Assembly: GCA_003220495.1 (NCBI GenBank)
Contig: QHSP01000042.1
Coordinates: 1 to 55,564 of the forward strand
Source of the DNA: Candidatus Rokuibacteriota bacterium
Lineage (GTDB): Bacteria; Methylomirabilota; Methylomirabilia; Rokubacteriales; CSP1-6
Direction: 5' to 3'
DNA: 55,564 nt
The notes below the pieces were generated by a model, which saw only the letters and a program-made list of their open reading frames with translations, did no database searches and was not told where the DNA came from. A program made the translations under genes and the position numbers. Below are positions 664 through 28,739 of the stretch, piece by piece. Position 1 is the stretch's first letter, and each line of letters starts with the position of its first letter.

Positions 664-1878
664 TCAGCGCGCGTCACCGCTCCGAGAGGGTTCCGACGGT
701 GAATGAGGATCTGCCGAGGCGACGGTGATCGTCGCGGCTGCGTTCCTCCAGAGATAGAGGAGGCGCCAGTCGTTGCTGAAGACCCCGATCTTGACCGTGA
801 ACGTCCCGGCGGCGGCTGAGCCGGGCCAGGTCCAGGCGTAGGTGCGGACCTGCCCCGCGTTGAAGCTCTGCTCGGAGATGGCGTTCTGAGCGACCCTTGT
901 GCCCGCCCCGTCATAGACCTCGATGTCGATGATGCCCGAGCCCGCCGTCGCCGAGGTGACCGGGACCGTGATGGCGATGCTCTGCCCCGGCCGGGCCGTA
1001 TCGGGGCTCACCGAGACGGTCCCGACGGTGAACGAGGGTGACGACGGCGTCGGCGACGGCGAGGGCGCGCGGGAGGGTGAGACCGCTCCCCCGACCGTGA
1101 TGCTGTAGGTGCTCACATTCAGTGTGCCCTTGCCCTTGAAGACCTCCGGCCCGAACTGCACGCTGTCGAGCCACCAGTCTGCGGGGAGGTCGTGGTTGTT
1201 CACGAGCCACTGGGCGAACTGCATGATGCCTAAGGTCGCCCCCTTCAGGTCCGCCGGTTCGTCGAGCAGGAATGTCGCAACCGGGGCTGAGCCACCCTTT
1301 TTCTCGATGACCTTCCACCGGTGCCCGCCGATCGTGGCGTAACCGATGGCCGGGTAGTCCGAGAAGAGCTCGCGGGAGTAGGCCAGCCAGATCATCATCT
1401 CGTAGGCGGGGTGACTCGTGCCGGGGTTGGCGGTCTTGTGGAACCAGATGTCGTAGGAGATGTTCAGTCGACACACGCGGGACCCCCCGCAAGATGAATC
1501 GGGCACGTAGTCGAAGAGCGCTGTCGTGTTGATGGGAGTTCGCGAGGAGAGCTGAATCGGCAACCCAAGCCGTGCGGGCGGAACATGCCAACCCCATTGC
1601 CACCCAAAGATGGCCGCCGCGTAGGTTGTGACGACCCAGTTTTCGCTGCGGTCAAAGTCCCAGCTGGTCGACCAGGATGTGCCGCTGTTGACTGTGATGC
1701 GCTGCCGGCCAGAGGCGCCGCCCTTGTTCCAGTGGTTGTTGAGGACGTAGACCGAGGGCGTCAACTCGATGACACAGCCATCGAACTCGCACTTTTGGGG
1801 GAACTGGGCGCTTTCGCCCTCCACCAAAACAAGCCAGGGCATGGCCGCAAGGGCCACCAAGAGGGTGAAGAGCTTCAC
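664..1878 (-). CDS. Secreted GH12 endoglucanase/xyloglucanase with C-terminal beta-sandwich domain
   Basis: 404 residues. A signal peptide (about 1-24) leads into a GH12 jelly-roll catalytic domain (about 25-265). The nucleophile is probably Glu160 in AYEMMIWLAY and the acid/base Glu245 in FGPEVFKGKGTLNVSTYS; both motifs are characteristic of the family, which cuts beta-1,4-glucans. A Pro/Ser/Thr linker (about 268-285) connects to an immunoglobulin-like or carbohydrate-binding-like domain (about 286-390) that I cannot assign to a numbered CBM family. The start overlaps the stop of the upstream decarboxylase by 4 bases, so translation is probably coupled. Being the last gene of a polysaccharide-modification operon argues for a role in processing the cell's own exopolymer, as in cellulose and other EPS systems that carry their own glycanase. 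That role is inference. Confidence 0.85.
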   Translation of the reverse strand: MKLFTLLVALAAMPWLVLVEGESAQFPQKCEFDGCVIELTPSVYVLNNHWNKGGASGRQRITVNSGTSWSTSWDFDRSENWVVTTYAAAIFGWQWGWHVPPARLGLPIQLSSRTPINTTALFDYVPDSSCGGSRVCRLNISYDIWFHKTANPGTSHPAYEMMIWLAYSRELFSDYPAIGYATIGGHRWKVIEKKGGSAPVATFLLDEPADLKGATLGIMQFAQWLVNNHDLPADWWLDSVQFGPEVFKGKGTLNVSTYSITVGGAVSPSRAPSPSPTPSSPSFTVGTVSVSPDTARPGQSIAITVPVTSATAGSGIIDIEVYDGAGTRVAQNAISEQSFNAGQVRTYAWTWPGSAAAGTFTVKIGVFSNDWRLLYLWRNAAATITVASADPHSPSEPSRSGDAR

Positions 1879-3200
1879 CAGAGCGGGTTCTGGTTGGCGA
1901 GGACGTCGTCCGGCTTCCCGGCTTCGCGCAGCGTGTGCATCTTGCCCCCGTATACGAGCACCTCAGCAGGAGTGGGATGGCTCAGAAAGGCCAGGCTGCT
2001 CGCACTGTAGCCGTACGCGCCGCTCATAAAGACGCCGATCACGTCGCCGGGTGACACGTGCGGGAACGGCAGGTTCTGCGCCAGCGTGTCCAGGGGGGTG
2101 CAACATGGGCCGACGATCGTTGTCCGCTCTTCCACACGGCTGCTCCAGCGGTCGAGAACCGCGATCGGGTACGCCTTGCGCAACACCTGGCCAAAATTCC
2201 CGGTCGCGGTGATGTGATGGTTCATGCCGCCGTCGGTCACGACAAACGTCTTGCCACGCGAGTGCTTGATGTCCACCACGCGCGTGGCATAGATCCCGGC
2301 TTCCGCCACCAGATATCGCCCGAGTTCAATGACGGGCCGAGCGCGCTCCAGCATCGTGTGTTTCCGACATGACTGCACCACGCCTCGGTACCCTTCGGCA
2401 AATGCGTCCAGGTCCAGTTCTGGTAAGTCCTCGAAGTAGGGGACACCAAAGCCGCCACCAAAGTCGATGAACTCGAGCGGCTGTCCCACTTGGGTCGCCA
2501 CATCGCTGGCGGTCTCTACGACATGCGCGCAATGCGCCAGCAGTCCGTCGACATCGAAGATCTGCGTGCCGCCATACACGTGGATCCCGACCACGTGTAG
2601 CCATGCGGACTTCTTTGCGAGCCGGATGGCTTCCGGGATCTGCTCCTCGTCGATGCCGAACTGCTGTGGCCCTCCTCCCATGCGCATGTAGGCGCCTTTG
2701 ACGTGCTTGAGCGGGTTCACGCGAAGACCCAGAGCCGCGCGCTTCCCGGCCGCGGACGCGATGTCCGCCAGGCGCTCGATTTCTCCCAACGATTCGACGT
2801 TGATCGCCTGAATGCCGAGAGAGACCGCGGCGCCCAGTTCCGCATCGGTCTTGCCGGGGCCTGCAAACAAGGTTCGTGACGCAGGGAACCCGGCCCGTTG
2901 CGCCAGGAGCAACTCTCCAATCGAAGCGACCTCGGCGCCTACGCCCTGCCGCGCGATGAGTTGGCACACGCCCAAACTGGGGTTCGCCTTCAATGAGTAA
3001 TAGAGCGACGTCTCCGGCCCCAGCACCGAGGCAACCCGCTGGATCTGGGCGATGATGGCCTCGCCGCTGTAGACGTAGCAGGGGGTGGAGACACGGCGCG
3101 TGATTTCAGCGATTGGCACCCCGGAAATGGACAAGCCATCCTGAGAGATGGCGCCAAGCACCTTGACGAGCCGCGCGAGCTTAGCCTCGGGCCACTCCAT
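1875..3200 (-). CDS. Fold-type III PLP-dependent decarboxylase, exosortase-associated type
   Basis: 441 residues, similar to diaminopimelate and ornithine decarboxylases and closest in style to the pyridoxal-dependent decarboxylase that accompanies exosortase A polysaccharide loci. The cofactor lysine is Lys71 in SLKANP. The GGGFGVPY phosphate-binding glycine loop, ELGRYLV, and the GPCCTPLD/GAYGYS C-terminal active-site elements are all present, so it should be active. The substrate is not evident from sequence. The ATG at 3200 lies 20 bases inside the upstream ligase gene, and the stop overlaps the GH12 start. With the ligase and carrier protein just upstream it plausibly decarboxylates an amino acid, free or tethered to the carrier, to supply an amine used to decorate the polysaccharide. 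That scheme is proposed for exosortase loci but has not been shown here. Confidence 0.85.
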   Translation of the reverse strand: MEWPEAKLARLVKVLGAISQDGLSISGVPIAEITRRVSTPCYVYSGEAIIAQIQRVASVLGPETSLYYSLKANPSLGVCQLIARQGVGAEVASIGELLLAQRAGFPASRTLFAGPGKTDAELGAAVSLGIQAINVESLGEIERLADIASAAGKRAALGLRVNPLKHVKGAYMRMGGGPQQFGIDEEQIPEAIRLAKKSAWLHVVGIHVYGGTQIFDVDGLLAHCAHVVETASDVATQVGQPLEFIDFGGGFGVPYFEDLPELDLDAFAEGYRGVVQSCRKHTMLERARPVIELGRYLVAEAGIYATRVVDIKHSRGKTFVVTDGGMNHHITATGNFGQVLRKAYPIAVLDRWSSRVEERTTIVGPCCTPLDTLAQNLPFPHVSPGDVIGVFMSGAYGYSASSLAFLSHPTPAEVLVYGGKMHTLREAGKPDDVLANQNPLW

Positions 3201-4749
3201 GCTTCAGCGCGCTCCTGTCGATCTTGCCAGAGGGAGTTCGCGGCAACTCGGCAAGGATCTGAACGATTTTTGGTACCACGTAGTGAGGGGCTCGCTGCAA
3301 GCACCCCGCTTTGATTTCCTCCGGTGTGCACGTGAACCCCGACTTGAGAGCCACGACCGCCACGATCTTATGGCCTGACGCTCCATCCTTTTGACCGAAC
3401 ACAGCCGCTTCGGCCACGGGCGGTAAGCCAGAGAGAATATCTTCCACCTCGTGCGGGCTGACTCGGTATCCGTCGCTTTTGATTTGTTCGTCACGCCTTC
3501 CCACAAAGTAGAGAAAGCCGTCTTCCCCCCGTTTGACCAGGTCTCCCGAGTACACCACGCGATCAAGGGTCGGCAGTTCCGGCGATGCGAGCGGATTTGG
3601 CTTGTACACGGCGCGGGTTTTCTCCTCGTCGCCCCAAAAGCCGAGCGCCACGGTCGGCCCTCGATGGACCAGCTCCCCTTCTTCGCCCGGCAGGCATTCC
3701 TCGCCGCGCTCGTTGAGGACCCAGATGTCGGTATTGGGGATCGCGCGACCGATGCACGCTGGTCCTCGATCAATGTGTTCAGGCGGCAGATATGTGGACC
3801 GAAACGCCTCGGTCAGGCCGTACATCAAGTAAAGCTTTGTGCTGGGCAACAAGGACCGGAGCTGCTCGAAGTGCGCCTGCGGAATCATTCCCCCCGAATT
3901 CGTGATGTACCGCAGCTCTGAAAGCGGCTGGCGCTCCAGGCTGCGCCGGTTCTGCAGGAGCAGCGTCCACACCGGTGGCATGCCAGCGAGCCCGGTGATC
4001 CGCTCTTGACGGAGGGTTTTCAGCATATCCCCGGGCAGGAGAGACCGCGGGAGGACGAGCGTTCCTCCCACGCGGACCATCGTCGTGAGCTGGCTGAGAC
4101 CGTAGTCAGAACTGAACGGAAGGACGCTCAGCACACGGTCGGAAAAGGTGTTCTCCAGGTAGAGGGAGACAATCTGAGCGCCAGCGACCAGATTGCGGTG
4201 GGACAGCATGACGCCCTTCGGCCCGCCCGTAGAGCCGGACGTGTAAATAATGCTGGCGAGGTCGGTTTCAATCGCTGGCGTCTCCAGGGAACCGCTGGAG
4301 ATACTTCCGAGGGCTTCCTCGAAGGACACGGACCGTTTCGCCCAGGCAAGCGCCGTGGCCGAGTGCGTGAGAAACACGGTCTCCACCTCTGGTAGCGCGG
4401 AGCCTTCGAGCTTGGCCGGATCGCTCACCAGCATCCGCATACCGCAGTTGCGCATGATGTGGGCGACCTGGGGTTCTTTGAGCAACGGATTCATGCTGAC
4501 AAAGCAGCCCCCTGCCTGCGCGACAGCGAAGATGCTCACCACCGCGTCCAGAGACTTCTCCAGATACACCCCGACCCGATCCCCTCGCCGGAGGCCGGCC
4601 TTCCTCAGCGCATGAGCGAAGAGGGCGGTCCGCCGCAGCAAGTCGCCGTGGGTGCACCGTTCCCCATCAGCCACGACCGCCACCGCGTCGGGTCGTTGCT
4701 CTGCCGCGTTCCGGAGGAGGTGGAACAGGGTGAATTCGGCCAAGCTCAT
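3181..4749 (-). CDS. AMP-forming acyl/aminoacyl ligase, exosortase-associated type
   Basis: 522-residue member of the adenylate-forming (ANL) family. Core motifs are YTSGSTGGPKG (169-179), YGLTEAF for adenine binding, YSGDLVKR and GRRDEQIKSDGYRV at the hinge, and PRTPSGKIDR carrying the catalytic lysine near the C-terminus, so both adenylation and thioester formation look intact. The enzyme would activate a carboxylic or amino acid with ATP and load it onto the pantetheine arm of a carrier. The obvious partner is the acyl carrier protein encoded immediately upstream, whose stop overlaps this start by 4 bases. It matches the AMP-forming ligase commonly found with exosortase A systems. Substrate specificity cannot be read from the sequence. 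Confidence 0.87.
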   Translation of the reverse strand: MSLAEFTLFHLLRNAAEQRPDAVAVVADGERCTHGDLLRRTALFAHALRKAGLRRGDRVGVYLEKSLDAVVSIFAVAQAGGCFVSMNPLLKEPQVAHIMRNCGMRMLVSDPAKLEGSALPEVETVFLTHSATALAWAKRSVSFEEALGSISSGSLETPAIETDLASIIYTSGSTGGPKGVMLSHRNLVAGAQIVSLYLENTFSDRVLSVLPFSSDYGLSQLTTMVRVGGTLVLPRSLLPGDMLKTLRQERITGLAGMPPVWTLLLQNRRSLERQPLSELRYITNSGGMIPQAHFEQLRSLLPSTKLYLMYGLTEAFRSTYLPPEHIDRGPACIGRAIPNTDIWVLNERGEECLPGEEGELVHRGPTVALGFWGDEEKTRAVYKPNPLASPELPTLDRVVYSGDLVKRGEDGFLYFVGRRDEQIKSDGYRVSPHEVEDILSGLPPVAEAAVFGQKDGASGHKIVAVVALKSGFTCTPEEIKAGCLQRAPHYVVPKIVQILAELPRTPSGKIDRSALKHGVARG

Positions 4750-5060
4750 TCTGCCTCCAACTTCCGCTCCACGAGGGTGGCGATCGAGGATATCGAGCGG
4801 AAATTGTGCTCGTTGACCTCTTCGGGGTCGATCTCGATCCCAAACTTCTCGCCGAGAAACATGACCAACTCTACGGCTTCGAGTGATGTGAGGTAGCCGT
4901 TCTGGATGAGCGGCGTGTCAGCCGCGACCTCGTGGCCACTTCCCTTCGCGAGCTGTGTCGTGATGCAGGCATGGATTACCGCAATCACCTCCGTGCGGGG
5001 TGATCTCGACGTGCGCTCGCTCGACGTGGGCCGACGCGGCCCATCGCTAGATGAATGCAT
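4746..5060 (-). CDS. Acyl carrier protein, exosortase-locus type
   Basis: 104 residues from the ATG at 5060. I prefer this start to a much longer upstream one because the extra N-terminus would be low-complexity read-through of the preceding gene. The carrier fold covers about residues 25-100. The pantetheine attachment serine is in NGYLTSLEAVEL, so the usual Asp-Ser-Leu reads Thr-Ser-Leu. The following helix (LVMFLGEKFGIEID) and the acidic EEVNEHNF loop are typical. A basic 20-residue N-terminal tail precedes the fold. It overlaps the upstream GNAT gene by 14 bases and the ligase by 4. It presumably carries the acid activated by the ligase to the decarboxylase or the GNAT transferase. Confidence 0.82.
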   Translation of the reverse strand: MHSSSDGPRRPTSSERTSRSPRTEVIAVIHACITTQLAKGSGHEVAADTPLIQNGYLTSLEAVELVMFLGEKFGIEIDPEEVNEHNFRSISSIATLVERKLEAE

Positions 5061-6165
5061 GGCTCGCCTCGCTGTCTCCAAAGCTGTAATTCCAGGCGCC
5101 TGGTCGTGTCGCAATGGTCTGTATGCCCGGGTCAGCGAACTTGACCGACAGCACAAAGTCGCCTCGCCGGATGAACCCCAACCGGCGCAAGTCGGGCACG
5201 GGCATGGCACCAGGGCTCGCAAAATAGCGGACTGTCCACGCGCCCTCGGCGCGAAGCCGCTTGACGGCGTACCGCATGAGGGAGATCGGGACCTCGACAC
5301 CTGCTTCCGGCAGCGCCAGCAGGTCCAAGATCAGCCCCCGGTGAGTCTCCACTGAGAGATGGAAGACCACGTATCCCAGAAGGTTCCCGCCCCCGTCGGT
5401 CACAACTGCAATCTCTCGTGTGGGGTGCGGCGATGTCGGACCATAGCGCCACTGCAGGAACCTCAAGTCTCTGACCGGCATGGCCGGCGCACGCTGCGAG
5501 ATCCGTAAGAAAAACTTCTCGAGCCGGCGGTCAAACTCTCGAAGCGGCTCCACGTGGAGCGCATTCCGACCAGCCAGCCGAACGGTATCTCTAAGACCCA
5601 GCGCGCCCGTCAGCAGCCACTGAGCCAGGAGCGGCACACGATTGAGCCTCTCGTGTTGGCGCAGCGCGCGGCCGTCGAGCACTTTGACGTAACCTACGAG
5701 GCGTCCTGCTCGTTTGGCGCCCAACCATTCCGTCACCTTGATGGTGGATGGAACGTCATCCGCGCTGACACAGTTCGCGCACGTGCGAAAGAACTGGTGC
5801 ATGAGTTGAAGGCCGTAGAACCTGTATTCCGGATCGACCATATAGTCCGCAGGTGTATGCGCAGTGAGCGTGGTCCCGCCAATTCGGTAAGCAAGGGGGA
5901 CAGTGTTCAGAAAACCGACGACACGGTCGTTGTCGACAAGCACCCACTTCGCACCACCGTCGAAAAAGAGATCGTTCTCACGCCCCCACTCCCAACGCGC
6001 TTCAAATCCCACCCGTGATCGTTCCGAAAAGATCTTGCCGTACAGCTCATACACCTGCTGGCGATGGCGTATCTGAAATGGCATGATCCGCACCTGCTTA
6101 CTCGAGTGCGGCCCGGCCCCTGGCTCGCCTTGCTTGCCCACGGCTTCGTCGATGGACTTCAGCAT
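5047..6165 (-). CDS. GNAT-fold acyl/aminoacyl transferase-like protein
   Basis: 372 residues from the ATG at 6165. An earlier in-frame start at 6243 would overlap the methyltransferase by 59 bases and add an unstructured leader, so I reject it. The N-terminal half has a GNAT-like pattern (WVLVDNDRVVGFLNTVPL, then the YMVDPEYRFYGLQLMHQFF helix), and a second GNAT-like half follows (AVVTDGGGNLLGYVVFHL, LLALPEAG, FASPGAMPVPDLRRLGF). It is therefore a double-GNAT protein of the kind seen beside carrier proteins in exosortase polysaccharide loci. A role in moving the carrier-bound group onto a sugar is inference. The 3' end overlaps the ACP start. A second, sequence-distinct GNAT protein sits beside an ACP at 18064-18951. 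Confidence 0.68.
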   Translation of the reverse strand: MLKSIDEAVGKQGEPGAGPHSSKQVRIMPFQIRHRQQVYELYGKIFSERSRVGFEARWEWGRENDLFFDGGAKWVLVDNDRVVGFLNTVPLAYRIGGTTLTAHTPADYMVDPEYRFYGLQLMHQFFRTCANCVSADDVPSTIKVTEWLGAKRAGRLVGYVKVLDGRALRQHERLNRVPLLAQWLLTGALGLRDTVRLAGRNALHVEPLREFDRRLEKFFLRISQRAPAMPVRDLRFLQWRYGPTSPHPTREIAVVTDGGGNLLGYVVFHLSVETHRGLILDLLALPEAGVEVPISLMRYAVKRLRAEGAWTVRYFASPGAMPVPDLRRLGFIRRGDFVLSVKFADPGIQTIATRPGAWNYSFGDSEASHAFI

Positions 6166-8727: not shown

Positions 8728-10290
8728 CTATAAGACGACCGCTCGGGAACCGGTCTTGACGCGAACCGCGACTCCGGCCCGGCTGCGTACCGCTGCGGCC
8801 AGCAGCCGAAGGTCGAGCGCGCGAGTCCGCATCTCGGTGTAGAGCCGGTCGAGCGCGAGTCGGCCGTCCCGCTGGGGACGTGAAGGAGTGAAGTGCCCGA
8901 GCGTCACCAATCCTGGTGGCGCCAGATCGGGCTCACCGCGAGCCCTGAGCGCGTCGACCTCGGCGGAGCTCCGCGGCGTGGTGCCGACCCACTGCAGATC
9001 GCCTCGGAGGATGCTCCAGAGATATGGAAGGCGCTTGCAGCCCCATCGGCTCAACATCCTCCCACACGGGCCACGCACGGCGAAGGAGCAGAGCCTGACC
9101 GGCCACCCCCGGGCGCCGACCACCTCGCGCCGGTGAAATGGCCGCCCGTGGGTTTCCAGGATCAATGCAAGTAGGATCAGGCCCCACATCGGCGCCGCTG
9201 CGACAAGCACGAGCGCGGCGAGTAGATTGCCGAGCAGGAGATTCCTCGGGGCGACCAGCGCCGGTGTGCGCGTGTCGACCAACAGACACGGGTCCCGCAC
9301 GTCGATCCATGTCGTCGGCTGGGCAAGTCCCACACCGCCCGGCGTGACGACCGCATCCTCGAGACGGAGGCCACCGCCGACGTGCGTCCGCGCCGTCACC
9401 ACCGATTGGCGAATCGTCGAGGCCTCGTCCACGATCGCCTCGTCACCGATCACGGCGCTCGCCAGCAGGGCGCCGCGGCCTACGACCGCGTTCGTTCCCA
9501 CGAGCACAGGCGCCGACAGCCGAGCACGAGGATGAATCGACGCGCCACGGCAGACACGGATCCCGGGTTCGATCTCCACTCCGGGGACGACCAGACCCGG
9601 CAGCTCGCCAGCGAGCGCGCGTTGGTTCGCCTGGAGGAGCTCAGCGAGTGTCCTGATAACCACACCCGGCCCGCTGGTCACTTGTCCGTACACCGGGAGC
9701 CTTGCCTCGAGCAGCCTCGGGACCAGGTCGGCGACGAGATCCGCCGGCCGGTCGAGCCGCGGCAGATGCCGCAGTGCGGATGGGCTCACAACGGCGAGCC
9801 CCGCCAGGCCGAACGAGCCCATTCTCGGCAGGCTTGGGAGCAGGACGCGATTGTCATCCGTGAGGTCCAAAACGCCATCGGCCGCGGTGGTCGGCTTGAC
9901 CAACAGAGTGAGCGCGGCGTCGTGGGCGCGGTGGAAGGCGCTGGCTTTCGCTAGATCGGCGGGAACCAACGCCGTGCCGGCGGCGAGCACGAACGGCTCC
10001 GTCCATGACGCGGCGATCCGCCGCGCGCTGCCGGCAGTGCCGAGGGGGGTGCGCTCGAGCACGTAGTCGAGCCGTAGCCCGAGTCGCGTGCCGTCCCCGA
10101 GGCATGCTTCCAGGGGATAGGGGTAGTGGTGCAGGGCCAGAGTCGCGGACTCGACTCCGTGGCGGACCAGCATCTCAAGGAGATGCTCGATCACCGGGCG
10201 GTTCACCACCGTGAGCAAAGCTGCCGGACGGTCCCGCGTGAGCGGCCACAGACGGGTGCCCGCGCCTCCAGCCAGGATTACTGCCTTCAC
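8728..10290 (-). CDS. Fusion of degenerate NDP-sugar nucleotidyltransferase and degenerate phosphoglycosyl transferase
   Basis: 520 residues. Residues 1-220 are a sugar-nucleotidyltransferase fold (ILAGGAGTRLWPLT), 235-320 a left-handed beta-helix of hexapeptide repeats, 348-378 a hydrophobic membrane segment, and 380-515 a polyprenyl-phosphate sugar-transferase (monotopic PGT) domain. Key residues are missing. The PK-type catalytic lysine after GTRLWPLT reads Pro-Ala, and the metal-binding Gly-Asp reads Gly-Thr (VLAAGTALV). In the PGT half, the Asp-Glu dyad seen in the neighbouring active enzyme as SLDELPQ reads Cys-Lys-Arg-Leu-Pro (Lys419, Arg420), and the YKFRSM element is also lost. The protein therefore looks catalytically dead in both halves and may act as a scaffold or sensor. 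Its start overlaps the STAS gene stop by 4 bases. Confidence 0.78.
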   Translation of the reverse strand: MKAVILAGGAGTRLWPLTRDRPAALLTVVNRPVIEHLLEMLVRHGVESATLALHHYPYPLEACLGDGTRLGLRLDYVLERTPLGTAGSARRIAASWTEPFVLAAGTALVPADLAKASAFHRAHDAALTLLVKPTTAADGVLDLTDDNRVLLPSLPRMGSFGLAGLAVVSPSALRHLPRLDRPADLVADLVPRLLEARLPVYGQVTSGPGVVIRTLAELLQANQRALAGELPGLVVPGVEIEPGIRVCRGASIHPRARLSAPVLVGTNAVVGRGALLASAVIGDEAIVDEASTIRQSVVTARTHVGGGLRLEDAVVTPGGVGLAQPTTWIDVRDPCLLVDTRTPALVAPRNLLLGNLLAALVLVAAAPMWGLILLALILETHGRPFHRREVVGARGWPVRLCSFAVRGPCGRMLSRWGCKRLPYLWSILRGDLQWVGTTPRSSAEVDALRARGEPDLAPPGLVTLGHFTPSRPQRDGRLALDRLYTEMRTRALDLRLLAAAVRSRAGVAVRVKTGSRAVVL

Positions 10291-10718
10291 GATGCGGTGT
10301 CTCCCTCGAGCAGGCGGCCCGCGGCCCGGAAGGGCTCACGCGGAACTTTCGCGACCACAGGGCCCGCTGCGCGGTCCGTCAGCGCCAGGATTTCGCACGC
10401 TTGAGAGATGTCGTTGCACATCTCGAAGAGGAGATGAAGCTGCATGATTTCGAGGAGGATCCGTACCTCGGGGCGCGATCCGACTAGGCACAGCCTGCCG
10501 CGGCGACGCTCCGCATCCCGGAGGAGCGACACCAACGCGCCGAACCCGCTGGAGTCCACGTGGGGGACCTGACTGAGATCGACCGCGATGAACGGCGGGC
10601 TCGCCGCTTCGAGCAGGCGGCGGGCCGTTCGGAGGAACGCCGGGGCAGCCCCACTGACCAGATCGCCGTCGAGCGCGATGACTAGCACAGAATCGATCTC
10701 ACGGGCAGTGACCTTCAT
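10287..10718 (-). CDS. STAS-domain protein (anti-sigma-factor antagonist-like)
   Basis: 143 residues from the ATG at 10718, which has a purine-rich GGGAGAGAGGGG ribosome site; a start 27 bases earlier is less likely. The STAS fold (about 1-105) includes the phospho-acceptor motif HVDSSGFG (Ser56/Ser57), so it could be switched by a serine kinase and phosphatase in the manner of SpoIIAA. A basic 35-residue C-terminal tail follows. Encoded inside the exopolysaccharide operon and coupled to the pseudoenzyme (4-base overlap), it more likely controls a local protein-protein switch in polymer synthesis than general stress sigma factors. No kinase or phosphatase partner is visible in the window. Confidence 0.85.
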   Translation of the reverse strand: MKVTAREIDSVLVIALDGDLVSGAAPAFLRTARRLLEAASPPFIAVDLSQVPHVDSSGFGALVSLLRDAERRRGRLCLVGSRPEVRILLEIMQLHLLFEMCNDISQACEILALTDRAAGPVVAKVPREPFRAAGRLLEGDTAS

Positions 10719-10803
10719 CGCCCCTCTCTCCCTTCGACTGTCCACCTTCGATCTCTACCGTCGACCTCATCCCATGGCCCTCAGAGTCCGTTCGTCGGCT
10801 CAG

Positions 10804-11613
10804 CTAGGACGCTCCCTTACCGGAGAGGACCGCGGGAATGGTGCGCGCCAGGATCTCGAGATCGAGCCCCAGGGTCTGGCGCTCGATATACCTGATATCG
10901 AGCTGCACTTGCCCATGGAAGTCGATGTTGCTGCGCCCCGAGACCTGCCAGAGACCCGTGATTCCCGGTACAGCGGTGAGCCGCCGCCGATCGGCAGGAT
11001 CGTAGAGGGCGACCTCCGAAGGAACCGGCGGACGAGGCCCGACCAGAGACATCTCTCCGCGAAGGACGTTGACGAACTGTGGCAGCTCGTCCAGAGACAA
11101 TTTGCGGCAAACGCGCCCGACCCGGGTGATGCGTGGGTCCTTGCGAATCTTGAATAGAATCCCGTCGGGCATCTCGTTGAGCGCCATGAACGCGGCCTTG
11201 CGCGCCTCGGCGTCTGGCACCATCGACCGAAACTTGTACATCACGAACGGGCGGCCGTTGCGCCCCACCCGTATCTGCCGGAACAAGACGGGGCCGCCGT
11301 CTGAGAGCTTGATGGCGAGTGCGATCGTGGCGAAGAGGGGGGCACCCAGGGTCAGAGCCGCGGCCGCCCCGACGACGTCCACGCCGCGCTTGAGGTGTGC
11401 CGCGAGCCAGATGCGGGACCGCCACGCGAGCCGGCGGACCGTCCGCGACGCGATCTGCCGGCGGCGTGCCGAGCCGAGTCCGCCGCCGGCAAGGCGGTGA
11501 TACCGCTCCTGGAGCAGCTGGACCTGGTAGGGACTCACGGCGCGCTCGCTGCGGGACCCACGGGTCGCCTCATATCGCCCGTCGCCCGGTCGGCGTCCAT
11601 TCGGCCCTTCCAC
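10804..11613 (-). CDS. Polyprenyl-phosphate hexose-1-phosphate transferase (monotopic PGT, WcaJ/Wzx-locus type)
   Basis: 269 residues from a GTG at 11613; a GTG at 11538 is an alternative that would remove the 44-base overlap with the GT2 gene. A basic N-terminus leads to one membrane-embedded helix (about 80-105), then the catalytic core: FRQIRVGRNGRPFVMYKFRSM, SLDELPQ with the Asp-Glu dyad, LRGEMSLVGPRPP, and VPGITGLWQVSGRS. All hallmark motifs are present, so it should start the repeat unit by moving a sugar phosphate from an NDP-sugar to undecaprenyl phosphate. It lacks the long multi-helix N-terminal half of WbaP-type enzymes. It is the intact counterpart against which the degenerate copy at 8728-10290 can be judged. 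Confidence 0.9.
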   Translation of the reverse strand: MEGPNGRRPGDGRYEATRGSRSERAVSPYQVQLLQERYHRLAGGGLGSARRRQIASRTVRRLAWRSRIWLAAHLKRGVDVVGAAAALTLGAPLFATIALAIKLSDGGPVLFRQIRVGRNGRPFVMYKFRSMVPDAEARKAAFMALNEMPDGILFKIRKDPRITRVGRVCRKLSLDELPQFVNVLRGEMSLVGPRPPVPSEVALYDPADRRRLTAVPGITGLWQVSGRSNIDFHGQVQLDIRYIERQTLGLDLEILARTIPAVLSGKGAS

Positions 11614-12784
11614 GGCGCGTCACCCGGGCGCAGACCGCGACCTTGTTGAGCACGTATCGCGGTGCGCAGTAGATGAGGGCCAGATAGGTCCGCGCCGGAA
11701 CCCCGGCCAGTGCGCAGCCAGCAAGCGCATAGAAGGTCTGGGCCACGAGCAACCCGCCCCAGCAGGCTGCGGGGGCGAAAGGACCGCCGGCCAGCCACGC
11801 GATCGCGTGCGCGGTCGCCATCAACGTTGTGCCGGCTGCCAGCAGGGCGAACGGCGGCGTTGCAAGATCGAGCGCAGCGTCGAGGCACGTCCAGGACCGA
11901 AGGCGCACTGCCGCCCGCAGGAGCGCCGGCAGGTACGCGCGGGCGATCTCGAGCCGCCCGCCCTCCCACCGGAGCTCCTGGTTCTCGGCCGCCTCGAAGG
12001 TGGGCTCCATGACCGTCGCGACCACGGCGTCCGGGACGAAACCCACGTGACCCCCCGCGAGCACGAGCTGGAGGTGATATTCCTGATCTTCAGCCACTGA
12101 GCACGTCTGCCACGTGGCGCGGCGGAGCGCGACGCGCGTCAGGCAGACGCCGTTGCCACGGAGGCCGGCCGAGGCCCCAAGCGCCTGCCGGCCAAGCGGC
12201 CGCAGATAGTAGATGAGCGCGACGTCGGCGGCCATGAGCGCGGTGCGCCAGCTCTCGTGCGGGTTCGCGACGCTGACGTGACCCTGGAGCGCATGGGCTC
12301 CGCGCTGGAGCTCGCGGTCGAAGGCCCGTAACAGTGTGGGAACCGGCTGAGAGTCGGCGTCGAGGATCACGAACGCGTCGTGGCGGTCTTCAGCCAATAG
12401 CGAAGCGAAAGCCCACCGCAGCGCGAAACCCTTTCCACCGCGCGCGCCCTCGGTATGCTCGAGCACCCGTGCATGACCGACGCGCGCGAGGCTGGCCGTC
12501 CCGTCGGTGCAGTGGTCGGCGACCACCACGATCTCGTACAACTCTCGCGGGTATTCGAGCCGCTCGAGGCTCCGCAGCAACACCGGGAGCGTGAGTGCCT
12601 CGTCGTGGGCCGGGATCACTACCGCGAACCGATGTCGCGGCGGCGGGGCGGCGCCAGTCGGCTTCCGTCGCGGGTGACCGACAATCGCCGCGCCGGTGAG
12701 AAGCGCGAGGTAGCCGGTGAACACGCCGGTCGACAGGACGAGCGTGAACCCGAGCAGGCTGAAGACGGCGAGCAGGATCTCCAT
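11570..12784 (-). CDS. Membrane-bound GT2 glycosyltransferase (processive, BcsA-like topology)
   Basis: 404 residues. An N-terminal membrane helix (about 4-32) precedes a GT-A domain beginning FAVVIPAHDEALTLP. VILDADSQP provides the DxD-type metal site, VAEDQEYHLQL the catalytic base region, and QELRWEGGR the QxxRW-like motif that binds the growing chain in processive enzymes. Two or three further helices (about 305-365) complete a synthase-like topology. It would add sugars to a polymer or lipid-linked oligosaccharide at the inner membrane. Its ATG shares one base with the stop of the tyrosine-kinase gene, and its 3' end overlaps the PGT gene. The exact polymer is unknown. Confidence 0.85.
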   Translation of the reverse strand: MEILLAVFSLLGFTLVLSTGVFTGYLALLTGAAIVGHPRRKPTGAAPPPRHRFAVVIPAHDEALTLPVLLRSLERLEYPRELYEIVVVADHCTDGTASLARVGHARVLEHTEGARGGKGFALRWAFASLLAEDRHDAFVILDADSQPVPTLLRAFDRELQRGAHALQGHVSVANPHESWRTALMAADVALIYYLRPLGRQALGASAGLRGNGVCLTRVALRRATWQTCSVAEDQEYHLQLVLAGGHVGFVPDAVVATVMEPTFEAAENQELRWEGGRLEIARAYLPALLRAAVRLRSWTCLDAALDLATPPFALLAAGTTLMATAHAIAWLAGGPFAPAACWGGLLVAQTFYALAGCALAGVPARTYLALIYCAPRYVLNKVAVCARVTRRGRAEWTPTGRRAI

Positions 12785-14634
12785 TAGCCGTAGTTCGCGT
12801 AGAAGTATCGGTCCCGGGTCAGGCGCACGTGGTTCAGCACGAGGCCCAGGATTTTGGCGCCCTGGAGCTCCAGGCGGTCACGGGCCACCCACACCGCTTC
12901 GACCGGCGTGGCGTGCGCCCGCGTCACGAGCAGCACACCGTCGACAATGGGTGCCAGGACGGCTGCGTCCGAGGCCGGAAGGACCGGGGGCGAATCGATC
13001 ACGACCCACCGATACTGTTCTCTCAGGTCGTTCAGCAGGTCGCTGAGCCGCTCGGACGAGAGTAGCGCGGCTGGATCGGCGGGCCGTGGCCCAGTGGGTA
13101 GGAACGACAGGTTCGAAACGCCGGTGGGCACGATCACGGAGGCCGGGGCGTCCCCGCGAGCGAGAACCGTCGACAGCCCGACCTTCGGAAACTCAAGGTC
13201 GAACGCATGGTGACACACTGGCTGGTGGAAGTCCCCGTCGATCAGCAGCACGGGGTGGCCGGTCTTGGCCAACGCCGCCGCCAGGTTCACGGCGATGAAG
13301 GACTTGCCCTCGGACGGCTGGGCGCTCGTCACGAGGATCGTCCGCGGCGCGGTCTCGGCGCCCCGCTTGAGGACGGTTGCCCGAATGGAGCGGAACGCTT
13401 CGCCGGCGATCCGTTCCGGCCGCAGCTGGTTTTCCCTGACCAGACTCTGGAGATCGTCGAGAGGGGCCAGCATCCGGCGCGTGAAACCGCGGATGGCTGG
13501 CACAGTCCCGACGCTTGGGAGCTGGGTGATCAAGTCGACTTCACGGGCGCTGCGCAAGGTCGTGTCGCCGAGCTCGAGCACAAACGCCAAGGCCAGCCCG
13601 CCCACGAGGCCCCCAGCCAGCGCGAGCATGAGGTCGCGCTGGTGGTTCGGCGTCACTGGCGTACGAGGCCGCTCCGCAGCGTCGATGACCTTGATGTTCG
13701 CGACCCGCACCTGGGCCGACAGCTCGAGCTCCTTGAGACGCTTGGTGAGCTCGCTCTGGACCTCGTTGTCGAGGCGGTCCTTGGCGTAGGCGAGATCCGC
13801 CTCCAGCTCCATCATCTTCGGGTGCTGCGGTCCGTAAACCGTGCGCGCGCGAGCGACCTCACGCTCGAGGTGCGAGAGGTCTGCCTTCAGCGTCCGGAGG
13901 AGGTCGCCACCGACAGCGGCCGCGACGGCGTACGGGTCCACGGTGGCGGGAGTGCCACTCGACCCCTCGCTCCGCGAATGGAGGCTGGCGAGCGCGCTTT
14001 TGAGCCACCGAGTCGCGAACTCCGAAACCTCAAGGCCCTCCTGGCCGGCGGCGCGTATGTATTCTTTCGCGATGCGGTTGGGGATGGCGGCGGCCAGCGC
14101 CGGATCGGGGACTCTGGCGGTGATCTGGACCATTCGGGTTCTCTTGACCTGCGATACGTTGATGTACGACTCGAGACCGGCCGGGCCCGGCTGGGCGTTG
14201 GCGAACGCCGGATGGTGATTGAGGTCGAGCGCGGCCTCGACGCGAGCCAGCAGGCTACGGCTCCTGATCCGTTCGTACTGGGTGTTGTAGTAGGCCTCGA
14301 AGACCCGCTCGTTGAATCGTATGTCTTCCTGGGGCGCCAGTTCTGATGGGATGCCAGTGAACGCCACGGCCCTCGGGCGCTCTGGATCGATCTGCAGCAC
14401 CGTCGTCGCCTCGTATATCGGCGTCGTGGTGTAGCTCCAGAGCGCGACCGCTGCCACCACCGCCGCGGTGAACGCGACAATCAACCAGCGGCGATGAACG
14501 ATGATGTCCCAGAGGCTTCGTGACGGTCGGCGGGGCGCCGCGGCATCCGCCGGCTCCCCGCCAGGGAACTGGAAGGCCTGGACCACCCCGTTCTGCGAGG
14601 ACAGCTGCAGTCGGCGTTCCATGTAGGGGGTCAT
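12784..14634 (-). CDS. wzc: Wzc-like polysaccharide co-polymerase with C-terminal tyrosine autokinase
   Basis: 616 residues. A Wzz-type chain-length domain with membrane helices near 47-68 and 325-350 flanks a periplasmic region that includes coiled coil (about 235-300). The cytoplasmic BY-kinase domain (about 425-616) has Walker A SAQPSEGKS, Walker A-prime LLIDGDFHQP and Walker B WVVIDSPPV, and ends in a tyrosine cluster YFYANYG, the usual autophosphorylation target. This protein controls chain length and couples synthesis to export through the Wza pore. Its start overlaps the Wza gene by 4 bases. Membrane and kinase parts are fused in one chain, as is usual in Gram-negative bacteria. Confidence 0.92.
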   Translation of the reverse strand: MTPYMERRLQLSSQNGVVQAFQFPGGEPADAAAPRRPSRSLWDIIVHRRWLIVAFTAAVVAAVALWSYTTTPIYEATTVLQIDPERPRAVAFTGIPSELAPQEDIRFNERVFEAYYNTQYERIRSRSLLARVEAALDLNHHPAFANAQPGPAGLESYINVSQVKRTRMVQITARVPDPALAAAIPNRIAKEYIRAAGQEGLEVSEFATRWLKSALASLHSRSEGSSGTPATVDPYAVAAAVGGDLLRTLKADLSHLEREVARARTVYGPQHPKMMELEADLAYAKDRLDNEVQSELTKRLKELELSAQVRVANIKVIDAAERPRTPVTPNHQRDLMLALAGGLVGGLALAFVLELGDTTLRSAREVDLITQLPSVGTVPAIRGFTRRMLAPLDDLQSLVRENQLRPERIAGEAFRSIRATVLKRGAETAPRTILVTSAQPSEGKSFIAVNLAAALAKTGHPVLLIDGDFHQPVCHHAFDLEFPKVGLSTVLARGDAPASVIVPTGVSNLSFLPTGPRPADPAALLSSERLSDLLNDLREQYRWVVIDSPPVLPASDAAVLAPIVDGVLLVTRAHATPVEAVWVARDRLELQGAKILGLVLNHVRLTRDRYFYANYG

Positions 14635-15659
14635 GGGACGAGGCCGATGCTGAGCAGGCGCGCCAGGACATCGAGGATCGTGTAGCCGACGACCTTCGCT
14701 CTGCTCGCCGGGACGACTACCACGTCGTGCGGCCTGAGGGGCAGATCCTTGGTTGTGTCCCCCTCCAGGATCGAGTCGAGATCCAGGCCGGTGAGCTCCT
14801 CGCGATGCCCGGTCTCGGTGGTTCGGACGATCGTGACTCGATCGGACGCGCGCTTGGTCACACCGCCAGCCTCGGCGATCGCCTTGGCGACTGTCGTGCC
14901 CCGGCGCAGCGTGTACGCCCCGCGCTTCTCCACCTCGCCGCTGACATAGAACGTACTGGCTTCCGGGACGTACACGGAGTCGCCGGGCTCCAGCATCACA
15001 CCGCCGCCCTGCCCGGCCCGGAACAGCCCGTCGAGGTCGACCTCGAGCGGCTGCGGCTCGTCGCTTCGGGGTTTCGCCCGCAGGACATACGCGACGCGGC
15101 CCGCGTTGTCGCGCGCGCCGCGCGCTTCGGACAGGGCATCCCGGAGCGTGACCTCGTTGGTGCGGATCGGGTATGCGCCGGGCTGGTTCACAGCGCCGAC
15201 CACCGAGAACTGGCGTCCCCGGAATTCAGAGACCGTCACCGTGACACGGGGATTCTTCAGATACGCTGGCTTCAGCGCGCTCTCGATGGCCGTCTCGATG
15301 TCGCGTCCCGTACGGCCGGCGACCTGAATCTCTCCGACCAGCGGCAGCGTGATGGTGCCCCTCTCGCTGACTCGCGCCGTCCGGGTGAGGTCGTCATGGC
15401 CGTGAATCTGGACGAACAGCTGGTCACGTGGCGCCACGTGGTAATCCCCCATGTCGGCCGGAGCGACTGCCGGACGGACCGGCTCGGACGGGGGCGTGAA
15501 TTCGGGGCGCGAGAGCGATCCAGGCAGGGCTGTCGGCGTGGCGGTTGGCGCCGCCTTTGTCTCGCGAGGCGAGGCCGGCGCGGTTGCGCGTGTCGCCGGG
15601 CTCGTCGCGCATCCGGCGGCGAGCGCCACGACGAACAAGCTCGCAAGCGATCCATGCAT
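14631..15659 (-). CDS. wza: Polysaccharide export outer-membrane lipoprotein (Wza/OPX family)
   Basis: 342 residues from the ATG at 15659, which has a strong AGGAGG ribosome site; an earlier in-frame start lacks one. A lipoprotein signal peptide ends in LAAGC (Cys17). A Pro/Ala/Thr-rich linker follows, then the polysaccharide export domain (YHVAPRDQLFVQIHGHDDL, about 72-155) and SLBB-type repeats (FSVVGAVNQPGAYPI; FYVSGEVEKRGAYTL). It forms the periplasmic and outer-membrane channel for the polymer and pairs with the downstream Wzc-like kinase. It is the first gene of a seven-gene operon that runs down to 8728. Confidence 0.92.
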   Translation of the reverse strand: MHGSLASLFVVALAAGCATSPATRATAPASPRETKAAPTATPTALPGSLSRPEFTPPSEPVRPAVAPADMGDYHVAPRDQLFVQIHGHDDLTRTARVSERGTITLPLVGEIQVAGRTGRDIETAIESALKPAYLKNPRVTVTVSEFRGRQFSVVGAVNQPGAYPIRTNEVTLRDALSEARGARDNAGRVAYVLRAKPRSDEPQPLEVDLDGLFRAGQGGGVMLEPGDSVYVPEASTFYVSGEVEKRGAYTLRRGTTVAKAIAEAGGVTKRASDRVTIVRTTETGHREELTGLDLDSILEGDTTKDLPLRPHDVVVVPASRAKVVGYTILDVLARLLSIGLVP

Positions 15660-15687
15660 GACAGCCACCTCCTGGCTGCCGGGGAGC

Positions 15688-15703
15688 TGCAAGGGGGATG
15701 CCC
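15688..15703 (-). promoter_or_regulatory. Possible sigma-54-like promoter of the wza operon
   Basis: On the minus strand the site reads GGGCATCCCCCTTGCA. GGCA and TTGCA are present with correct GG-to-GC spacing, but the first T and CG of the -24 box are not. The predicted start would leave a leader of only about 18 bases before the ATG, still enough for the ribosome site. It is weaker than the sites at 462, 7196 and 7376. Confidence 0.38.
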
Positions 15704-17396: not shown

Positions 17397-18137
17397 GTGA
17401 CGACCAAGCCATCGAACACAACGCCGATCCAAGAGCGCGTCGAATGGACGATCGAGAGACTGATCGCGTCCTGCCCGGACCCGGCCCAGCTCTCGCCCGA
17501 GGAACGCCGCGGGATCATCGCGCGCTACGCCGCAGTGCTCGAAGGGAATTTTATCTACTGGATGACCGCCGCCTATCTCTCCGTCGCGTCGGATGAAGCC
17601 CACGCGATCGTCCAGGACAACCTCCGTGAGGAAGTCCGCGACAATCATCCTGGGATGCTTCGACGCTTCGCCATGGCCGCTCGGGCCCTTCCGACGGATG
17701 TGGATGCGCTGGCCGTCTGGCCGGCGCTGGAGAGCGTCCGCCGATTCGTGGCGGGGCTCTCGGGCGTGAAGATCGTGCTCATGATGACCTTCTTCGAAGG
17801 GTTCATCAGTCGGTTCATGCCGTATCTGGCAGAGCTCGCGGCGAGCCAGGGCTCGGCGGAGCGGGAATATACGGATGTTCACGGCGTCGTCGACATCGAG
17901 CACACACAAGGACTCTTCCGCGCGTCCGAAGCCGAGATGACGCTGATGAACGATGAGTGTCCGCCTGCGGAAGAGCTCTTCGAGGGGCTGGAGCTCCTTC
18001 AGACGCTGATCCAGAGCATCCTTCGTCTCGGGGTCCCGGGCGTCTCGGTGTCCGGGGCCGGCCTCACTCGCGGTGACCAAACATGGCGAGTTCCGAATAT
18101 GCCAGGTCCCCGAGACGCGGTGGATGAGGTCCCTTGA
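17397..18137 (+). CDS. Heme-oxygenase-like diiron oxidase (HDO superfamily)
   Basis: 246 residues from a GTG at 17397. The all-helical protein carries the metal-ligand pattern of heme-oxygenase-like diiron oxidases: Glu49 in helix 1, Glu78/Glu79 with His84 (NLREEVRDNHPGM), Glu134 (FFEGF), and the signature His162-x3-Asp166-x2-His169 (VHGVVDIEH). This set is seen in UndA, CADD, SznF and BesC, and argues against a simple heme-binding or PqqC-like cofactor-free protein. Known members use iron and oxygen for decarboxylation, C-C cleavage, N-oxygenation or desaturation, often on amino or fatty acids. Here it lies beside amino-acid and acyl-activating enzymes, so its substrate is probably made by or loaded onto them. 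Its last 74 bases overlap the convergent GNAT gene. Confidence 0.8.
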   Translation: MTTKPSNTTPIQERVEWTIERLIASCPDPAQLSPEERRGIIARYAAVLEGNFIYWMTAAYLSVASDEAHAIVQDNLREEVRDNHPGMLRRFAMAARALPTDVDALAVWPALESVRRFVAGLSGVKIVLMMTFFEGFISRFMPYLAELAASQGSAEREYTDVHGVVDIEHTQGLFRASEAEMTLMNDECPPAEELFEGLELLQTLIQSILRLGVPGVSVSGAGLTRGDQTWRVPNMPGPRDAVDEVP

Positions 18138-18951
18138 AGTATTTGGGATGTGGGCTGAGATACCGGCCAATGAGCCCGCGGATCGGGCCGTTCGCGTCGA
18201 GCATGACCAGCGGGCATCCTCGCCGCGCGAGGAAGCGTCCCAGCGGCCCGGCAAACCGGACGAAGTCTTCGAGAGCGCGGCAATAGACGAGATATGCGAT
18301 GGGCACGAAACGGAACCGGCGGAGCCTGAAGATGAATGGGTGGCCGCGGTTCGCCGAGCTGCAGACCACGCTCACGCAGCCATACCGCGCGTGGGCCAGC
18401 AGTAGTTGGAACTCGGACGGCGACAGGTCCTCTCGCGCGCCCGTATCGGATTCGACGGTCTGGACGCGAGCGCCATACGACCGCGCCGAGAGCGCCGGGA
18501 TGGCCACGAATCGCCCGCTGCAGTACCGCGTGAACCCCTGCGCTTCGAGTATGGGGGGTGTATGAGGCGCGGGCGAGATATTGAAATACGTGACACGCTC
18601 TGGCCGCAGCGCATAGGCCGCCAGCATCGCTGCGTGACTCCTGAACGCGGGCTCCACGTACCAGCTGGACAGATTGCATCGGATTCTCACGTCTCCGTCG
18701 ACGGGGATGGACGAATGTATTCGAAGCGTGACTCCAACCGGAGTGCCGGCGCTCTCGAGCAGATAGCCGTACTTCGGGAACCCAGACGGCGTCGGGTGTT
18801 GCGACAGGCGCTCGATCGCGCGCCGAAAGTACTGCGAGTTGCGGCCCGGGAAGCCGCGCTCGAGGAGAGCGATGATCCCGTCGGTATCGCTCTCCAGTAT
18901 CTCACGACAACGGATCCGCTGCGGTGGTCGCAGCGCCATGAGGGGCAACAT
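18064..18951 (-). CDS. GNAT-fold acyltransferase-like protein
   Basis: 295 residues from the ATG at 18951, which is preceded by GAGG; a TTG at 18975 is also open. The N-terminal half shows GNAT-like features (LESDTDGIIALLERGFPGR, GYLLESAGTPVGVTLRI, LSSWYVEPAFRSHAAMLAAYAL, FNISPAPHTPPILEAQGF), and a second domain follows. It is divergent from the ACP gene (53-base gap) and convergent with the diiron oxidase gene, overlapping it by 74 bases. It resembles in role, though not closely in sequence, the GNAT protein that accompanies the ACP at 4746. A likely job is moving an acyl or aminoacyl group between carrier and amine, which is inference. Confidence 0.62.
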   Translation of the reverse strand: MLPLMALRPPQRIRCREILESDTDGIIALLERGFPGRNSQYFRRAIERLSQHPTPSGFPKYGYLLESAGTPVGVTLRIHSSIPVDGDVRIRCNLSSWYVEPAFRSHAAMLAAYALRPERVTYFNISPAPHTPPILEAQGFTRYCSGRFVAIPALSARSYGARVQTVESDTGAREDLSPSEFQLLLAHARYGCVSVVCSSANRGHPFIFRLRRFRFVPIAYLVYCRALEDFVRFAGPLGRFLARRGCPLVMLDANGPIRGLIGRYLSPHPKYFKGPHPPRLGDLAYSELAMFGHRE

Positions 18952-19004
18952 ACTCACATTGTCCTCGAAGGGCAATCACGAACGACGGGGGAGGCCTCAG
19001 CGCG

Positions 19005-26908: not shown

Positions 26909-28231
26909 ATGTCCGCTTACGACCTCGCCATCGTCATCCCCGCCTGGAACGAGCGGGAGAACCTCGAGCTCCTCCTGCCCGCCCTTCGCGAGATCGTCGG
27001 GGCGCTCGGCCTCCGCGCCCAGATCATCGTGGCCGACGGGGGATCGGTGGACGGCACCGAGCAGGTGGCCCCCCGCTGGGGGGCCGAGGTCGTCCTCCAA
27101 ACCGAGCGCGGGTACGGGGGCGCCCTCCTCGCCGGCTTCGCCAAGGCTGACGCACCCTTTGTGGTCACCATGGACGCTGACCTCTCGCACCGTCCGGTCT
27201 TCCTCGAGGCGCTGTGGCGCCATCGTCACGATGCCGAGATCCTGATCGCTTCGCGATACCTCGCCGGGGGCCGCGCCGACATGCCACCCTTTCGGCGAGT
27301 GCTCAGCGTCACCCTGAACCGGGTGTACGGCCACATGCTCCGCCTGCCTGTTCGCGATCTGTCGAGCGGCTTCCGGATGTACCGCCGCGATGCGCTCGCG
27401 AGCCTGGACCTGCGCTCGCGGGACTTCGACATCCTGCAGGAGCTCCTCGTGCGCGTGGGCGCCGAGGGCTGGCGGATCCGCGAGATCCCCTTCCACTACA
27501 TGGCGCGAGGGTCCGGCCGGTCGCACGCCCGTCTCCTGCGCTTCGGCTGGGCCTACCTGAAAACGCTGGTGCGGATGTGGCAGCTCCGCAACTCCGTCGA
27601 GGCCGCCGATTACGACGCGCGCGCCTTCGACAGTCCGATCTGGCTGCAGCGCTACTGGCAGCGCACGCGCCACCGGATCGTCCTCGACTACATGGCGGAG
27701 TCCCGGCGGGTGCTGGACGTCGGCTGCGGCTCGAGCCGCATCATCCTCGATCTGCCCTCCGCGACGGGTCTGGACATCCGTCTGAACAAGCTCCGGTGGC
27801 TGGCCCAGCGCCGGAGCCGCCTCGTGGGCGGAACGTGCCTGGGTCTGCCATTCCGTGACGCGAGCTTCGATGGGCTGATCAACTCCGAGGTCATCGAGCA
27901 CGTGCCCGACGACCCGGCGATCCTCCGCGAGGCGTGGCGAGTGCTCCGCCCCGGCGGCATCCTCGCCCTCGGCACGCCCGACTACGGGCGCTCGCTCTGG
28001 TGGGTGCTCGAATGGATCCACGGCCGGCTCTTGCCGGGAGGCTACGCCCACGAGCACATCACGCACTACACGCGCCGCTCGCTCGCGGCGCGTCTGGCCT
28101 CGGCGGGCTTCGAGGTCCTCGACTGTCGCTACGTGGGCGGGTGCGAGATGATCTTCAAGGCGCGCAAGCGAGACCCCGTCGGCGCGTCCCGCGCCGGCCC
28201 TCCAGCACCGTCCACCACACTGCCGCGATAG
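26909..28231 (+). CDS. Fused GT2 glycosyltransferase and SAM-dependent methyltransferase
   Basis: 440 residues with two domains. Residues 1-225 are a dolichol-phosphate-mannose-synthase-like GT2 (LAIVIPAWNEREN, VADGGSVDGT, VTMDADLSHRP, DLSSGFRMYRRD). Residues about 250-420 are a class I methyltransferase (VLDVGCGSSRI, LINSEVIEHVPDD, VLRPGGILALGTPDYG). The first half would make a polyprenyl-phosphate sugar or glycosylate a lipid; the second would methylate the product or another substrate. Both halves keep their key motifs. The gene is monocistronic on the plus strand, and its last 77 bases overlap a convergent gene at 28155-28739. Such fusions exist but are uncommon, and the linked order hints at a methylated sugar-lipid. 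Confidence 0.85.
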   Translation: MSAYDLAIVIPAWNERENLELLLPALREIVGALGLRAQIIVADGGSVDGTEQVAPRWGAEVVLQTERGYGGALLAGFAKADAPFVVTMDADLSHRPVFLEALWRHRHDAEILIASRYLAGGRADMPPFRRVLSVTLNRVYGHMLRLPVRDLSSGFRMYRRDALASLDLRSRDFDILQELLVRVGAEGWRIREIPFHYMARGSGRSHARLLRFGWAYLKTLVRMWQLRNSVEAADYDARAFDSPIWLQRYWQRTRHRIVLDYMAESRRVLDVGCGSSRIILDLPSATGLDIRLNKLRWLAQRRSRLVGGTCLGLPFRDASFDGLINSEVIEHVPDDPAILREAWRVLRPGGILALGTPDYGRSLWWVLEWIHGRLLPGGYAHEHITHYTRRSLAARLASAGFEVLDCRYVGGCEMIFKARKRDPVGASRAGPPAPSTTLPR

Positions 28232-28739
28232 CGCCCAAGGTCGCCACGACGAGGATCGCCACCGTCGCGTAGTCCGGGCTCGCATCGCCGCTCGCCCGCG
28301 GCTCCACGTCGAGCCACCTGATCACGGGACGGTAGCGCCACGCGCTCCGGGCGAGCGGATCGGCGGACACCGGGACTACGAGGAGCGCGAACGCGTGCTC
28401 GCCCGGCGGCCAGGCCCGGGGCCACTGCCGGACGATGGGTGGCGCGTTCACTCCGACGGCGCGCGCGTACGGCACCGGGCTCGGCGACCAGGCGCCGTCC
28501 TCGGTGAGGAACGACGCCTCATCCGTCCGGGCCAGGGCGAGATACAGATCGTAGGTCTCGGGCGCGCCCGCGCTCGGGGCGCGGACCGGCGCGATACGGA
28601 CGGTTGCGGGCGCGCCCTCCGTGACCGCGGCGGGGGACAGGCTGAAGTCGAACGGTGGCGCGGGCAGCGCGGCGGAGGCCGGAGCGGCCGCCAACGCCAG
28701 GATGGCCGCCGTCGCCAGCGTCTTCACCGGCGACGCCAT
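28155..28739 (-). CDS. Secreted, C-terminally membrane-anchored protein of unknown function
   Basis: 194 residues from the ATG at 28739. A signal peptide (about 1-24, ending AAPASA) is followed by an extracytoplasmic beta-rich domain of about 130 residues with no family I recognise, then a single membrane helix (YATVAILVVATLGAIAAVWW, about 160-180) and a basic tail. Its start overlaps the YfhO-like gene by 16 bases, so the two are probably co-translated and may work together at the membrane. The 3' end overlaps the convergent GT2-methyltransferase gene by 77 bases. Confidence 0.65.
   Translation of the reverse strand: MASPVKTLATAAILALAAAPASAALPAPPFDFSLSPAAVTEGAPATVRIAPVRAPSAGAPETYDLYLALARTDEASFLTEDGAWSPSPVPYARAVGVNAPPIVRQWPRAWPPGEHAFALLVVPVSADPLARSAWRYRPVIRWLDVEPRASGDASPDYATVAILVVATLGAIAAVWWTVLEGRRGTRRRGLACAP

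Follow-up and report, generated by a model that had tools for sequence, protein, structure and literature searches.

What does a bacterial protein do when it carries the domains of two polysaccharide-synthesis enzymes and the catalytic residues of neither? The question is raised by a gene at positions 8728-10290 of the window, the whole 55,564-nucleotide stretch of DNA analysed here, which comes from the 6.0 Mb draft genome of a Rokubacteria host, a soil bacterium. The initial annotation had described the gene as a double pseudoenzyme without stating a strand; the ORF is real and runs on the minus strand (10290 to 8728), with a GTG start and 520 codons for amino acids. The protein comprises a pseudo-nucleotidyltransferase (residues 1-235), a left-handed β-helix (LbH, 236-320), a Pro-kinked membrane helix (354-382), and a truncated pseudo-phosphoglycosyl transferase (PGT, 383-510). 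In Pfam, it matches NTP_transferase (PF00483) over residues 2-136 (E 8.8e-20, 71.7 bits against a cut-off of 21.2), a match that alignment extends to about residues 1-235, and Bac_transf (PF02397) over residues 358-502 (E 1.3e-9, 38.3 bits against a cut-off of 27). The LbH match (residues 250-317) is sub-threshold in this protein, and its homologue in genome G037 passes for both Hexapep and Hexapep_GlmU. In addition, 8x7s aligns with the fusion over residues 2-334. Judging by sequence, the fusion thus belongs at the family level both to the NDP-sugar pyrophosphorylases (PF00483, GMPP-type) and to the monotopic PGTs (PF02397).

The fusion is the last gene of an exopolysaccharide (EPS) operon on the minus strand, which encodes, in the direction of transcription, an EpsE/EpsY-like Poly_export (OPX, Wza-like) protein (14631-15692), a Wzz/BY-kinase co-polymerase (12784-14634), and an EpsU-like GT2 glycosyltransferase (11570-12784), followed by a 269-residue PGT (10804-11613) and a 152-residue STAS-domain protein (10287-10745). 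The PGT, whose motifs indicate a catalytically intact enzyme, consists of the EpsZ/WbaP-type catalytic domain only and has no TMH/DUF half. The STAS protein (74.7 bits), which appears from its sequence to be of the anti-sigma antagonist type, carries a DSSG phospho-acceptor-type motif. Its stop codon overlaps the start codon of the fusion gene (GTGA), and because this overlap is preceded by GAGGGAG, the two genes are probably translationally coupled. Response_reg was matched neither in the fusion nor in the STAS protein in Pfam.

Other genes lie around this operon in the window. A glycoside hydrolase family 12 protein (664-1878, minus strand) adjoins the EPS region, and close to it is an exosortase A system-associated acyl-CoA ligase with a PLP decarboxylase and a phosphopantetheine carrier protein (1875-5300, minus strand). 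Further away, a single ORF (26909-28231, plus strand) joins a GT2 domain at its N-terminus to a methyltransferase domain at its C-terminus, and two ORFs of 657 and 303 residues (28655-30628, plus strand, and 18064-18975, minus strand) have no Pfam match at E 1e-4.

In the nucleotidyltransferase half, P22-A23 stands where Pro-Lys is expected and G105-T106 where Gly-Asp is expected, exactly as the initial annotation had stated, and the losses go further than those it listed. In the fusions of the window, G037, and AR8 (Candidatus Rokuibacteriota AR8, a relative in the phylum), the signature Lys is replaced by Ala, Ala, and Asp, and the metal-binding Asp by Thr, Thr, and Ala, respectively; EKP, NxG, and WxDxG are absent as well, and none of the three proteins keeps any of these five elements. 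Among 26 intact nucleotidyltransferases from the same phylum, which served as controls, all keep Lys, Asp, EKP, and NxG, and 24 have WxDxG in register, the Asp being placed two positions on in the remaining two.

In the PGT half, K419-R420 (T-R in G037) takes the place of the Asp-Glu dyad. Both complete copies (window and G037) also lack KFRSM and a segment of about 31 residues that would lie upstream of the dyad, and the Asp of the DX12P motif, as defined for PGTs in PMC7484181, is Gly in all three fusions. The dyad replacement, the missing KFRSM, and the intact neighbour at 10804-11613, which has DELPQ, KFRSM, and DX12P, had been noticed before; the DX12P Asp and the roughly 31 residues are further losses. 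All three fusions retain the helix-breaking Pro of the re-entrant helix (P367 in the window), which lines up with that of intact PGTs. The other five PGTs of the host genome, including the neighbour, all keep Asp-Glu and KFR(S/T)M. Since the motifs kept by 26/26 controls (24/26 for WxDxG) are kept by 0/3 fusions, and since the five other PGTs of the genome are intact, the losses cannot be attributed to chance, even if most of the PGT losses in AR8 are out of view because a contig end cuts that copy. The dead PGT half is 30-33% identical to the adjacent PGT; origin by duplication was considered, and the very long stem leaves its position in the tree unresolved.

A model of the C-terminal domain, built from 15 alignment rows, reached a pLDDT of 79 and a pTM of 0.66, and its only significant matches in the PDB are PglC and WbaP (TM about 0.6). 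Because the 14 other rows are true PGTs, which biases the result, this model indicates compatibility with the PGT fold and not independent proof of it. Rows of the alignment were also drawn from 18 viral PGT loci, found with a PGT pattern in viral contigs and used for this purpose only. A full-length AlphaFold2 model from four rows (pLDDT 36, pTM 0.21) was not used. The C-terminal domain resembles the large monoPGTs, such as WbaP (8t53), and the small monoPGT PglC (8e37) in its fold and Pro-kinked re-entrant helix, but differs from them by the lost dyad, KFRSM, DX12P Asp, and 31-residue segment, and by a nucleotidyltransferase in the place of the TMH/DUF region.

Two homologues with the same N-terminal layout were found among 95 genomes of the phylum, one in G037 (55% identical, full length) and one in AR8/G082 (66%), in two other genera, one of these in another family. 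The AR8 copy ends with its 4,040-base contig, and G082:C10 is evidently the same contig. The three pseudo-N-domains form one clade (support 100/99), which is most simply explained by one loss in a common ancestor. The nucleotidyltransferase losses recur in 3/3 fusions and the PGT losses in both complete copies, with a dN/dS (NG86) of 0.26-0.35 for the whole gene and 0.19-0.43 by domain; the operon neighbours give 0.28-0.30 (STAS), 0.19-0.27 (PGT), and 0.25-0.40 (GT2), all values being rough as dS is near or above 1. No intact fusion of this layout, which would have spoken against the initial annotation, was found among the 95 genomes. The plasmid records contain no such fusion and no record covering 80% of the query, and protein scans and one pattern scan of viral contigs for further alignment rows yielded nothing; the scan of all species used exact 8-residue patterns, which copies as diverged as that of G037 would escape. 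Since the losses are shared by the homologues and the dN/dS resembles that of the neighbours, they are conserved and under selection, in line with the original view of a double pseudoenzyme that is not decaying.

The 3 of the 95 genomes that have the fusion are also the ones that have the minimal PGT and the GT2. Among the 59 nearest relatives scanned, the STAS gene is present only in the window's genome and G037, and it also lies on AR8's own contig. The cassette is absent from all eight further species searched within the window's genus and is thus patchily distributed. This patchiness of a GT2/PGT/STAS/fusion cassette with a BY-kinase suggests horizontal transfer or repeated loss.

At all three loci, a STAS gene lies upstream of the fusion, with one extra STAS-like gene in between in G037, and all three STAS orthologues have the DSSG motif with its phospho-acceptor Ser. 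The G037 cassette comprises a BY-kinase, GT2, PGT, WecG-STAS, STAS, second STAS-like ORF, the fusion, a GAF histidine kinase, and an NtrC-type regulator. There, three consecutive STAS modules precede the fusion (G037:C382, 5548-8349, minus strand): a WecG-type glycosyltransferase-STAS, a stand-alone STAS, and a 102-residue STAS-like ORF without the Ser motif. On a plasmid of Streptomyces sp. NBC_00464 (5624-8505), a STAS gene overlaps by 4 nt the gene of an intact nucleotidyltransferase-LbH protein (834 aa), downstream of an AGE-family epimerase, and a STAS sequence similar to the Streptomyces one is found on a Nostoc plasmid, inside an AGE epimerase gene. STAS modules are thus associated with nucleotidyltransferase/LbH proteins in two separate cases, which are too few for a general rule.

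We hypothesize, with a probability of roughly 55%, that the fusion, anchored at the membrane and without catalytic activity, serves as a regulatory or assembly subunit in an exopolysaccharide machine of the EpsZ/EpsU/BY-kinase/OPX type. This machine is presumably Wzx/Wzy-dependent. The Pro-kinked helix and the truncated PGT fold would keep the fusion next to the active PGT on the membrane, the β-helix would oligomerise it, and the retained half with GGxGTR and LGTAG would perhaps bind a nucleotide. Large monoPGTs, such as WbaP and EpsZ, combine a TMH bundle with a cytoplasmic DUF. Because the adjacent PGT, unlike these, is a catalytic domain only, we infer that the pseudo-nucleotidyltransferase and β-helix could replace in trans its missing regulatory half. 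In WbaP, dimer contacts are made mostly by the non-catalytic DUF, to which a nucleotide-sensing role has been assigned (PMC10942596). The partner, the ligand, and the direction of control would be those suggested by such analogies; as the co-occurrence spans the whole cassette, including the GT2, it singles out neither the PGT nor the STAS protein as partner.

Two bacterial systems provide parallels. EpsZ of Myxococcus xanthus is activated at the post-translational level by the response regulator EpsW (PMC12802240). This resembles the role suggested here, in that the PGT that initiates synthesis at an EpsZ/EpsU/EpsY-type locus for EPS is regulated by a non-catalytic protein. Nevertheless, EpsW is a single-domain response regulator, whereas the active PGT of the window has no DUF and is accompanied by a STAS protein and a double pseudoenzyme. 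SypA, a stand-alone STAS protein of the syp locus of Vibrio fischeri, controls biofilm formation through a phosphorylatable Ser by a mechanism that is unresolved (PMC4517449). By analogy, the STAS protein of the window, likewise a lone STAS protein from within an EPS locus, might switch the fusion through its DSSG motif, but it differs from SypA in its probable translational coupling to a pseudoenzyme and in having no recognised SypE-type kinase/phosphatase beside it.

The closest competing explanation, less probable but still with appreciable weight, is that the fusion is a tether and nothing else, holding the PGT, GT2, BY-kinase, or STAS protein together with neither ligand nor switch. The loss of the metal and sugar-phosphate contacts would agree with this, and so would the β-helix, with 41% invariant positions in the pseudoenzymes against 32% in the controls. 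However, conservation within the N-domain is uneven in a way that a tether would not need. Among the three pseudoenzymes, 61% of positions are invariant in residues 1-100, where the phosphate loop and LGTAG lie, and only 34% in residues 101-235, where the metal and sugar-phosphate contacts lie, whereas 120 triples of active controls of similar divergence average 54% in both parts. The resulting ratio of 1.79 exceeds the maximum of 1.5 across the control triples, which share rows and are thus not independent, and comes from three sequences only. The nucleotide-binding half thus equals or exceeds that of active enzymes in conservation, and the rest of the domain is relaxed, a pattern that fits a protein keeping its nucleotide-binding face and oligomerisation module and giving up its chemistry. 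The adjoining STAS gene also suggests a switch. The main objection, which favours a tether and argues against universal nucleotide binding, is that AR8 has GGATSR in place of the GGxGTR loop. Together with the loss of EKP and NxG, the sugar-phosphate contacts, this makes nucleotide sensing more plausible than NDP-sugar sensing for a regulatory subunit. As for the initial suggestion that the protein senses NDP-sugar levels or assembles the synthesis machinery, the conservation pattern fits a retained nucleotide half, and both functions remain inferred.

Dead nucleotidyltransferase copies are regulators in eukaryotes (GMPPA and eIF2B subunits). Human GMPPA and plant KONJAC, paralogues of GDP-mannose pyrophosphorylase, combine like the fusion a dead nucleotidyltransferase with a β-helix under selection, and GMPPA, which regulates its own active paralogue, shows that such a domain can act as an allosteric regulator (PMC11228364). 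It is therefore conceivable, although rather improbable, that the fusion regulates in this manner a soluble NDP-sugar pyrophosphorylase encoded elsewhere, bound via the β-helix, with the dead PGT tail as the membrane anchor. The layout would permit this, as the GMPPA-GMPPB contact runs through the LbH domains (PMC9168903), and ten further matches to PF00483 are present in the genome, among them an intact protein on contig C81. On the other hand, the C81 protein is only 30% identical to the fusion, no active pyrophosphorylase was recognised in the operon or the homologous cassettes, and the PGT tail and STAS protein are left unexplained. In addition, GMPPA is soluble, has no membrane or PGT domain, and binds GDP-mannose, and its sequence match to the fusion is weak (34 bits, residues 2-90). 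By analogy, the fusion would work like GMPPA or EpsW, while being identical to neither.

If one half or both were still an active enzyme with changed chemistry, this would account for the strong purifying selection and for newly conserved motifs, LRGDLxWVGTTPRS and an invariant H54-H55 among them, but such activity is very unlikely, since the metal ligands, Lys, EKP, NxG, the Asp-Glu dyad, KFRSM, and 31 PGT-core residues are all missing. A decaying pseudogene or assembly artefact, to which the long stem branches in both domain trees might point, is practically dismissed by open frames in three genomes, conserved synteny, and the low dN/dS.

To our knowledge, no conserved dead PGT has been described. 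Nothing relevant on PGT/nucleotidyltransferase fusions or PGT pseudoenzymes was found in the searchable literature, a scope that leaves outside the monoPGT network paper (O'Toole 2021), cited by PMC12802240 for fused domains. As both enzymes are dead and yet the protein has been preserved intact in at least three species, its most probable role is to regulate or assemble the polysaccharide machinery and not to synthesise sugar compounds. The STAS protein, the pseudoenzyme, and the minimal PGT would together provide a compact system for studying bacterial control of undecaprenyl phosphate use at the PGT step.
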